A program made the position numbers and the translations under genes. Below the pieces are notes generated by a model that was not told where the DNA came from, searched no databases, and saw nothing but the letters and a program-made list of their open reading frames with translations. From the NCBI GenBank assembly GCA_029248105.1, contig JAQWJZ010000037.1, positions 1 through 64,000 on the forward strand: a DNA stretch of 64,000 bases. The letters are read 5' to 3'. Shown piece by piece: positions 3,127 through 8,839 of the stretch (position 1 is the first letter of the stretch; every line of letters starts with the position of its first letter). Origin of the DNA: Flavobacteriales bacterium. Its GTDB lineage: Bacteria; Bacteroidota; Bacteroidia; Flavobacteriales; UBA7312.

Positions 3127-4212
3127 TCATTTTATGTGTTTTTTACACTTATTCCAATACTTGAAGAAGCTAGGAAAATAACCCGTGACAGGAAATATCC
3201 AATCTCTATCTTCTTCTGTTCCTTCATAACAATGATTTAGAGGATGTTCTTTATAGTATATACGACTCTCTTTGGTAACTTTTTTTAATTCCTTGAACTC
3301 GCCAACATATAATTGTATGCCATTAATATTTTTGGATAAGCCTAACATAAATTCCATTGATTTATTTGAAATGGGATAAGTCTTAAATATGCTAGGCTCA
3401 ATTAATAGAACTCTGTTGACGTCAAGCTTTGATTTCCATTTTGGATCTAAATTGTAGAAATTATAGATTAAAGTAGGCTTTTCTTGATCTATACTTATTT
3501 GTTTTTTTATGTCAGGCAATGAAGTTTCAAGCTTCAGTTTTTCTAATACAGTAAGTTCTTTAGGAATTTCTAATGTAGAAAATTGATGATATTCTACATC
3601 TAAAAATGTATTTTTTTGATTGGTGTAGCAATACTTATTAATGTTATTTTGATTGGCATAATATAATTTGTTACTATTGCTACCACATACCCATTGCCAA
3701 CTCAAACTATTGCTAGCCCAATCAGCATCTAACAAATGGTAATACATCCATTGAGAAGGCAGTTTCCAATGAGATTTTGCTACATTACAGCATAGGGCAG
3801 CGATATACATTCGTAAATGATTGTGTATGTAGCCTGTTTTATAAAATTCCTGTATAGCTTCATCAATAGCAAAAATTGAAGTGTTAGCGTCAACTATTGA
3901 TTTTGGAATAAAATAATTTTGTACACCTTCTTGTTTTTTCTTTAAATCAGAATTGATCAGTGTACCTTTATCAATCCAAATTTGTTGCCAGTAGTCTCGC
4001 CAAGCTAATTCTTGAATAAATTTTTCGATTTTGTAAAAGGGATAGTCTTGAGACATAATATACTCAAAGACTTGTTTGGTTGAAATAACACCTCTAGAAA
4101 TGTAGGGCGATAATTGGGTTACTGCTCCATCAATAAAATTTCGGTTTTTCCCATATTCTACAGGACTAATGGAATCTAATTTTTGGAGTATTTTTGAAAA
4201 GTCAGTCTCCAT
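3127..4212 (-). CDS. FAD-binding photolyase/cryptochrome-like protein lacking the N-terminal antenna domain
   Basis: 361 residues. Residues 1-200 match the helical FAD-binding domain of DNA photolyases and cryptochromes: RNFIDGAVTQLSPYISRGVIS (phosphate and flavin contacts), AWRDYWQQIW, TGYIHNHLRMYIAA, and DADWASNSLSWQWVCGS, the region carrying the electron-transfer tryptophans. The usual N-terminal Rossmann antenna domain is missing because the protein begins about 20 residues before the FAD domain. The C-terminal 130 residues (RVLLIEPSIFKTYP, IQLYVGEF, DRDWIFPVTGYFPSFFKYW) look like an alpha/beta domain placed after the FAD domain. Whether it repairs DNA or senses light is unknown. It has its own promoter box, and a small minus-strand gene lies upstream. 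Confidence 0.8.
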   Translation of the reverse strand: METDFSKILQKLDSISPVEYGKNRNFIDGAVTQLSPYISRGVISTKQVFEYIMSQDYPFYKIEKFIQELAWRDYWQQIWIDKGTLINSDLKKKQEGVQNYFIPKSIVDANTSIFAIDEAIQEFYKTGYIHNHLRMYIAALCCNVAKSHWKLPSQWMYYHLLDADWASNSLSWQWVCGSNSNKLYYANQNNINKYCYTNQKNTFLDVEYHQFSTLEIPKELTVLEKLKLETSLPDIKKQISIDQEKPTLIYNFYNLDPKWKSKLDVNRVLLIEPSIFKTYPISNKSMEFMLGLSKNINGIQLYVGEFKELKKVTKESRIYYKEHPLNHCYEGTEEDRDWIFPVTGYFPSFFKYWNKCKKHIK

Positions 4213-4297: not shown

Positions 4298-4603
4298 TTA
4301 TTGATTTCTATTTCCTCTAAAAGCTTGATACAATTTATCTTTTATTTCTTCTTCCATATCAGATTCAGCTTGAATGTAGCCTTCTTTTCTGCCAATTATC
4401 ATTGCTATAAAAATAGCTTCTCTTAAATTATGTCCTTTCTGAAGAATTTTCATCATAGCATCGTATGTATTTTCGGTTTCATCAGCAATCTGATTAGCTA
4501 TTTTTTCAAATTCTTCGAGTTCTTGTTTGTCACATTCTAAGAGGTGACATAGCTTTTCTATCTCAAAGTTATTTAGGTGTTGTGTTTTACTTGGAATGTT
4601 CAT
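4298..4603 (-). CDS. small hypothetical protein, acidic, helical
   Basis: 101 residues, not recognised. No signal peptide or membrane segment. Strongly helical and charged (DKQELEEFEKIANQIADETE, ESDMEEEIKDKLYQAFRGN), with one short hydrophobic stretch (REAIFIAMIIG). It lies 85 nt upstream of the photolyase-like gene on the same strand. Probably a cytosolic protein or binding partner. No function can be assigned. Confidence 0.55.
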   Translation of the reverse strand: MNIPSKTQHLNNFEIEKLCHLLECDKQELEEFEKIANQIADETENTYDAMMKILQKGHNLREAIFIAMIIGRKEGYIQAESDMEEEIKDKLYQAFRGNRNQ

Positions 4604-8266: not shown

Positions 8267-8839
8267 ATGAAATTTGTCTTAAGTATATTTTTTCTGTTTT
8301 TGAGTGTAGTTCTTTTTGCGCAGATACCGGGTATTCCTTACCAAGCGGTTTTGCTAAGTCAAGAAAATGCTCAAGAGTTACCGGGTTACGATTCTGAGTA
8401 CGCCAATTTACTAACCAATTCTATAGTTTCTGTGCGTTTTTCGATTTATGATGGTAATGGCCGTACTGCTCGATTAAGTATGAACCTCATTTTAATGTCT
8501 TTTGGTTTTCCGCCTGCTATCATTCTACGAAATGATAGGAAAAAATATTATGCTGCCTTAAATGCCGCTAATAAGGGTAATTACCAAAAGCTAATGCTTC
8601 TTATGGTGCAAGCTGTAGAGCGTACTTTAAATATTTATATTAATGCTTTGCCTGGTTCCGAAGATGGCTATGATGAGATTTCAAATATCGTTAAAGAGGA
8701 TGATGTTCCTTATGGGCAGGAGTATATTAGTTTACTGGCTCGGCAGGGTAAAATAGATGCTTATAAAGAAGGAAAAAATTGGTTAACCTCTAAAAAAGCC
8801 ATTCATAATTATATCATAACAAGAAAGCGTAATCGCTAA
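8267..8839 (+). CDS. chimera: secreted-protein N-terminus fused to the C-terminal half of a Fic protein
   Basis: 190 residues in one frame. Residues 1-65 have a signal peptide (ending FAQ) followed by IPGIPYQAVLL and SIVSVRFSIYDGNG, the typical start of secreted Bacteroidota fibre-like proteins. From D62 the protein is the second half of a Fic-domain protein: DGNGRTARLSMNLILMSFGF, DRKKYYAALNAANKGNY, and a C-terminal helix-turn-helix-like tail (EYISLLARQGKIDAYKEG). In Fic the motif is HxFx(D/E)GNGR. Here the His position is Phe, so AMP transfer should be lost. The fusion point sits in the shared word DGNG. Most likely a deletion scar or decaying gene, but the frame is intact. Read as a possible pseudogene. 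Confidence 0.7.
   Translation: MKFVLSIFFLFLSVVLFAQIPGIPYQAVLLSQENAQELPGYDSEYANLLTNSIVSVRFSIYDGNGRTARLSMNLILMSFGFPPAIILRNDRKKYYAALNAANKGNYQKLMLLMVQAVERTLNIYINALPGSEDGYDEISNIVKEDDVPYGQEYISLLARQGKIDAYKEGKNWLTSKKAIHNYIITRKRNR

Follow-up and report, generated by a model that had tools for sequence, protein, structure and literature searches.

The photolyase-family gene on the minus strand near the start of the window, by which we mean the whole stretch of 64,000 nucleotides analyzed here (Flavobacteriales bacterium, contig JAQWJZ010000037.1, positions 1 to 64,000), probably encodes a light-driven CPD photolyase whose domains are inverted in order like those of the NewPHL/SPL proteins. In this protein the FAD domain comes first and is followed by an alpha/beta domain whose predicted structure is closest to the antenna domain usually found at the N terminus of photolyases. 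The gene and its parts are as follows.

3127..4212, minus strand: reversed-order photolyase gene, 361 aa, ATG to TGA, stop codon at 3127-3129
3568..4212, minus strand: FAD-binding catalytic domain, about residues 1-215, delimited by sequence and structural superposition
3478..3567, minus strand: linker, about residues 216-245, fast evolving, delimited by the model and dN
3130..3477, minus strand: C-terminal alpha/beta domain with a predicted antenna-domain fold, about residues 246-361, assigned by structure match, with no match at the sequence level

An open reading frame check placed the boundaries of the intact frame at exactly 3127..4212. Relatives were matched in 99 stretches of the genome collection; in the best 80 of these 99, which were kept as loci, the alignment takes in the whole 361-aa protein or the greater part of it, at 43-80% identity. 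The dN/dS of the gene is 0.07 against locus L026 and 0.10 against L027, both with dS close to saturation; comparison with L028 yielded no usable dS. The gene is under purifying selection, and because 80 loci align at these identities and the ratios are this low, its frame does not represent a chance reading frame. Taxon labels of the loci (best 80 of 99) are mostly Bacteroidota; other labels are Balneola (L041), Akkermansiaceae (L060) and Verrucomicrobiales (L073), and further ones are Rhodobacteraceae (L053) and Sphingomonadales (L094, L096), three loci that may be misnamed. A nearly full-length copy is present in 9 of 40 relatives of the window's genome. The preliminary description had raised the question of whether other Bacteroidota share the architecture, and they do: 17 of 296 sampled genomes of the phylum carry the C-terminal domain, always within an open frame of 364-417 aa. 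At two loci the gene is seemingly split into shorter frames (L102:4974-5843 with the following 105-aa piece, and L100:4968-5861), which may be real or assembly errors.

The N-terminal position of a photolyase-like FAD domain, recognized in the preliminary description, is borne out by both sequence and structure. Pfam FAD_binding_7 at residues 65-187 (E 1.5e-17) is the only Pfam match above cut-off in the protein, and the Pfam and NCBIfam scans together gave a general FAD-domain match, with the models of other classes far below their cut-offs. A sequence search of the PDB aligned residues 15-179 with residues 223-397 of the Anacystis photolyase 1owl (E 1.2e-12). A full-length AlphaFold2 model was generated from 51 aligned sequences, consisting of the window protein and 50 of the 80 loci, and reached a pLDDT of 94.7 and a pTM of 0.92. 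Residues 1 to about 215 of this model superpose on the photolyase FAD domains of 7ykn (Z 15.9, rmsd 2.6, 217 aligned) and 1dnp_A (Z 15.4, rmsd 2.5, 212 aligned). The domain had been placed as starting near residue 20, with no antenna domain ahead of it. The second part holds, as Pfam, the model and the superposition all found no antenna domain N-terminal of the FAD domain; the first needs a slight shift, since the superposition on solved photolyase FAD domains begins at residue 1.

Residues that line the catalytic site were located by alignment to Anacystis photolyase.

3691..4011, minus strand: active-site block, numbered by the alignment to Anacystis photolyase
4009-4011, minus strand: E68, equivalent to Anacystis E283
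4000-4002, minus strand: W71, equivalent to Anacystis W286
3820-3822, minus strand: N131, equivalent to Anacystis N349
3766-3768, minus strand: W149, equivalent to Anacystis W367
3709-3711, minus strand: N168, equivalent to Anacystis N386
3697-3699, minus strand: W172, equivalent to Anacystis W390
3691-3693, minus strand: W174, equivalent to Anacystis W392

Further equivalences are M135 with Anacystis M353, D162 with D380 and D164 with D382. Conservation was counted over 86 rows, comprising the window protein and 85 distinct sequences from 89 open reading frames, some of them cut at one end and shown there as gaps. E68, W71, N131, W149, D162, D164, N168, W172 and W174 are invariant in all 86 rows, and M135 is retained in 82. 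The repair roles of the active-site residues of CPD photolyases are well established, and the residue equivalent to N168 lies beside flavin N5 in photolyases. The position of W174 is Tyr in all six DASH rows and Trp in class I and in the reversed-order groups. A third relay Trp is absent: residue 97, the counterpart of Anacystis W314, is Trp in none of the 86 rows, and across residues 80-148 each column shows Trp in 2 rows at most. There is likewise no set of four cysteines of the Fe-S kind, as Cys occurs in more than 30% of the 86 rows only at residues 142 (79 rows), 195 (49 rows) and 356 (60 rows). Judged from the alignment, the site is of the CPD type with a Trp dyad (W172, W149). A Trp dyad is also reported, in the accessible text of PMC8948257, for the Dinoroseobacter NewPHL.

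In the mechanism that we propose, the N-terminal helical domain would bind FAD, which would be photoreduced through a two-Trp relay consisting of W172 and then W149. Under light, a pyrimidine dimer, flipped out and held by E68, W71, N131 and W174, would receive an electron from FADH- and split, and the electron would return to the flavin. The predicted substrate is CPD in DNA, with a predicted preference for single strands.

The genomic surroundings of the family are rich in photolyase genes. Another photolyase-family gene lies in the flanks of 66 of the best 80 of 99 loci, with a DPRP/FeS-BCP gene in 59 and another photolyase type in 34; 56 of the 80 loci have at least 11,000 bases, and the others are shortened where their contigs end. 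Within the same best 80 of 99, a DUF2805-like gene is found at 29 loci and a flavin-reductase-like gene at 31, names which were taken from a single representative for each of the two clusters. Several loci, for example L048, show the order DUF2805, reversed-order photolyase, a classical-order homologue of about 486 aa, flavin reductase and FeS-BCP, with genes that overlap or nearly abut. The homologue of about 486 aa beside the gene lies at L031:6077-7537, L048:6074-7534, L036:6040-7530 and L060:6106-7656. The window's copy stands outside any such cluster. The window's genome (1.74 Mb, 99% complete) does contain two more photolyase-family genes, both on contig C18, namely one for a photolyase of classical order with 433 aa (PF00875 and PF03441) and one for a DPRP protein of 503 aa (PF04244). 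Our literature search found no paper joining photolyase and DUF2805.

The preliminary description had named light sensing without an antenna and a non-repair flavoenzyme as both possible; neither is supported as the leading reading. For a cryptochrome-like light sensor or another flavoenzyme of non-repair function it can be said that the reversed architecture and the flavin-reductase-like gene found at 31 of the 80 loci would fit a redox role, but the frequent adjacency of photolyase genes and the CPD active site argue against it. As the active-site residues, N168 included, are invariant throughout the 86 rows, we consider a non-repair role quite improbable. The neighbor of about 486 aa, by contrast, has lost these residues in 4 of 4 rows, with E replaced by R and the positions of N131, N168, W172 and W174 occupied by F, H, F and M, respectively; that neighbor may be a different kind of repair enzyme or a bacterial cryptochrome.

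In the predicted model of the C-terminal part, strands at 247-251, 266-271, 299-303, 318-321 and 332-334 are separated by helices, and the C-terminal 122 residues modelled alone again gave an alpha/beta fold (pLDDT 92.6). These five strands with their helices, within the approximately 140 residues that follow the FAD domain, agree with the alternating pattern earlier read from motifs such as RVLLIEPSIF and IQLYVGEF. To identify the fold, Foldseek's 1000 top-ranked PDB chains were re-aligned by VIA-align 2. The eight best re-aligned structures are photolyase/cryptochrome antenna domains covering 117-118 of the 122 residues. The best is PhrB 4dja (Z 7.8, rmsd 2.7, 117 aligned to residues 2-163), and Anacystis 1owm also ranks high (Z 7.3, rmsd 3.1, 118 aligned to residues 2-161); 1dnp_A is among these first eight rows with an rmsd of 6.2 and a range reaching residue 280. 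Photolyases and cryptochromes make up 39 of the 50 re-aligned rows shown, many of which are separate entries for the same Methanosarcina class II enzyme. The other 11 rows are unrelated structures, which cover only 82-95 of the 122 residues and stop short of the last helix. A Z below 8 would be weak taken alone, and it is the ranking and the full coverage that make the match persuasive.

These models support the view that an antenna-type domain has been relocated behind the FAD domain and is not missing. The permuted architecture suggested in the preliminary description is thereby upheld, as the structural comparison it had proposed returned an alpha/beta fold with antenna domains as the best matches, and the refuting result it had named, a model without a Rossmann-like fold, did not arise; its wording that the protein is without an antenna domain is not, the antenna fold being present at a new place.

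At the sequence level the same domain gives no signal. Pfam applied to 51 C-terminal domains produced nine stray families with one member each and E values of 0.022 or worse, and a profile search of the PDB had a best E of 0.55. Profile comparisons with FeS-BCP, class I, DASH, neighbor, and Deinococcus and NewPHL-like C-terminal domains all scored within column shuffles, the lowest being that against the 486-aa neighbors, where 1 of 20 shuffles scored as high. When the antenna domains of class I and FeS-BCP are compared with each other by this profile test, they fail as well, 2 of 20 shuffles scoring as high, and the method is therefore blind at such distances. Foldseek's own top 50 for the C-terminal model contained no photolyases and consisted of other folds, Rossmann-like ones included (best E 0.12). 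It would accordingly be conceivable that an FAD domain was fused to an unrelated Rossmann-like domain with no permutation involved, a reading that draws on this Foldseek result and on the lack of significant sequence similarity to antenna domains. We regard such a fusion as very improbable, however, as antenna domains rank first after re-alignment and account for the whole domain including its last helix, as established antenna domains fail the sequence test mutually, and as homologues with the same domain order match antenna profiles.

Those homologues, which are encoded on plasmids of Deinococcus and alphaproteobacteria, are 20-24% identical overall to the window protein. In Deinococcus L107 a PF00875 match lies behind the FAD domain (E 7e-4, 20 bits, below the curated cut-off of 26.6); this is one match among six proteins scanned, and the Deinococcus protein L114 has none. 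A profile of three Deinococcus C-terminal domains matched class I antenna domains with an E of 1e-5 and a probability of 82%, a score reached by 0 of 20 shuffles. A joint alignment places the RVLLIEPS..PISNKSMEF stretch of the window protein on the corresponding stretch of these proteins. The Deinococcus plasmid proteins L107, L113 and L114 combine the reversed order with a CxxCx5C motif and are annotated as 'FAD-binding domain-containing protein'; they resemble the Phr4/Phr6 type as set out in the accessible text of Haney et al. 2022 (PMC9426592).

On the preferred reading, the antenna domain that normally stands at the N terminus has moved behind the catalytic domain and forms the C-terminal alpha/beta domain. 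We predict that this domain most probably lies packed against the FAD domain, where it shields and in effect seals the flavin, and that its antenna pigment has probably been lost. A rival reading, in which the C-terminal domain of a reversed-order photolyase continues to harvest light with a bound pigment, for example the ribityl-lumazine known from bacterial (6-4) photolyases, is unlikely. The antenna fold is kept over the length of the domain, its best match PhrB is a lumazine enzyme, and 24 positions are conserved at 93% or more; for the one pair compared, the window and L026, the dN of the C-terminal domain (0.109) is close to that of the FAD domain (0.113), with 0.456 for residues 216-240. 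The domain is nevertheless short, with about 117 residues aligned on the approximately 160 of a classical antenna domain, and no chromophore site was recognized in it.

Comparison with known systems places this conserved, mainly Bacteroidota family among the inverted photolyases. According to the accessible text of the citing papers through which Emmerich et al. 2020 and Xu et al. 2021 are known to us, the NewPHL/SPL proteins repair CPDs in single-stranded DNA and have an inverted domain topology (PMC13274461), SPLs are described as having no N-terminal domain (PMC9649867), and SPLs constitute one of eight main groups (PMC9178010). As far as these accounts extend, the likeness lies in an N-terminal FAD domain, inverted topology, a Trp dyad and a CPD-type active site. 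The window protein has the N-terminal FAD domain, the second domain behind it and the dyad, the last as read from sequence only. It differs in that its branch is centered on Bacteroidota and its C-terminal domain is not recognized by sequence; at 361 aa it is also shorter than the alphaproteobacterial NewPHL stand-ins L106, L108, L110 and L111 (388-410 aa), to which it is about 20-24% identical. Membership in the characterized NewPHL family proper is probable.

The Phr4/Phr5 and Phr6 proteins of marine Synechococcus and Cyanobium likewise have the FAD domain in front and the antenna domain behind, as presented in the accessible text of Haney et al. 2022 (PMC9426592). According to the same text they carry four Fe-S cysteines and an antenna domain recognizable by InterPro and are proposed to be (6-4) photolyases, whereas the window protein lacks the cysteine set. 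Class I CPD photolyases (Anacystis, E. coli) share the FAD-domain fold and the CPD active-site residues, but in them an antenna domain precedes the FAD domain and the relay has a third Trp, features that the window protein lacks. The FeS-BCP/DPRP (6-4) photolyase PhrB provides the best structural match of the C-terminal domain, and FeS-BCP/DPRP is often the neighboring gene; PhrB, however, has the classical order, an Fe-S cluster and other residues at the aligned active-site positions. Assignment to FeS-BCP/DPRP was rejected, as PF04244 is unmatched in the window protein and in 51 C-terminal domains (E up to 1) and is matched by the adjacent FeS-BCP genes. Assignment to Cry-DASH was also rejected, with NCBIfam TIGR02765 scoring 52.5 bits against a cut-off of 317 bits. 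Published examples of the reversed order exist in NewPHL/SPL and Phr4-6, and we regard the window gene as a further, Bacteroidota-centered member of the inverted photolyases. A literature search for inverted domain order and Bacteroidota returned only PMC9426592, the accessible text of which is without that word; sequences from Bacteroidota may well appear in Emmerich 2020 and Xu 2021.

A FAD-domain tree was calculated from 50 rows and 205 columns, with 15 rows of the window's family and the alphaproteobacterial stand-ins representing characterized NewPHL. Class I, DASH and the 486-aa homologues, all of classical order, form one group (99/99), separate from those of reversed order. The tree does not unite the three groups of reversed order in a single clade, and such a clade is not rejected either (p-AU 0.49); the tree carries a long-branch warning. 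We entertain, as a doubtful proposition, that the family is a third inverted-photolyase lineage, one devoid of the Fe-S cluster, in which a miniature, relocated antenna domain has exchanged light harvesting for closure of the flavin site or choice of the substrate, or keeps a pigment at its new position. If so, this lineage together with NewPHL and Phr4-6 would indicate that the halves of photolyases can swap order, and the reversed order might equal the classical one in age. The compact 361-aa protein would also make a useful test case for the role of the second domain of photolyases, because its catalytic domain and permuted antenna fold could be expressed apart.

The distribution of DASH genes bears on the cellular role of the family. 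No DASH match is found in the window's genome at E 1e-70. DASH is rarer in genomes that carry the family (1 of 17, 5 of these 17 belonging to one genus) than in the others with an FAD_binding_7 match (68 of 145), a count which assumes that all 69 DASH genomes fall within the 162 genomes with such a match. The difference has a Fisher p of 0.001, or 0.006 with 13 genera as the unit, both rough values that ignore shared ancestry. NewPHLs reportedly replace DASH enzymes, a view ascribed to Emmerich et al. As DASH is rarer where the family occurs, we read the pattern as replacement of a single-strand repair role, which leads to the testable claim that many Bacteroidota use the reversed-order enzyme instead of DASH enzymes.

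There was no sign of a phage origin of the gene, a possibility that we rejected. Among 42 pattern stretches from IMG/VR, none encodes a relative of the 361-aa protein (tblastn), and the 10 phage records that match it do so over the FAD half, none covering more than 80% of the query. Matches in BFVD are led by giant-virus photolyases, over about 210-220 columns.

Three other open reading frames of the window were noted.

4298..4603, minus strand: small open reading frame of 101 aa upstream of the photolyase gene
8267-8839, plus strand: open reading frame of 190 aa
6888-7601, plus strand: 237-aa protein

The 101-aa frame occurs at the same place in the close relatives L026, L027 and L028 and has no Pfam match above cut-off; it is at most a candidate member of the photolyase system. 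The 190-aa frame, which has no Pfam match, starts like a secreted Bacteroidota surface protein, and its end looks to us like a Fic protein tail; the frame may have arisen as a deletion chimera. In the 237-aa protein, a rhodanese domain is fused to a thioredoxin domain.
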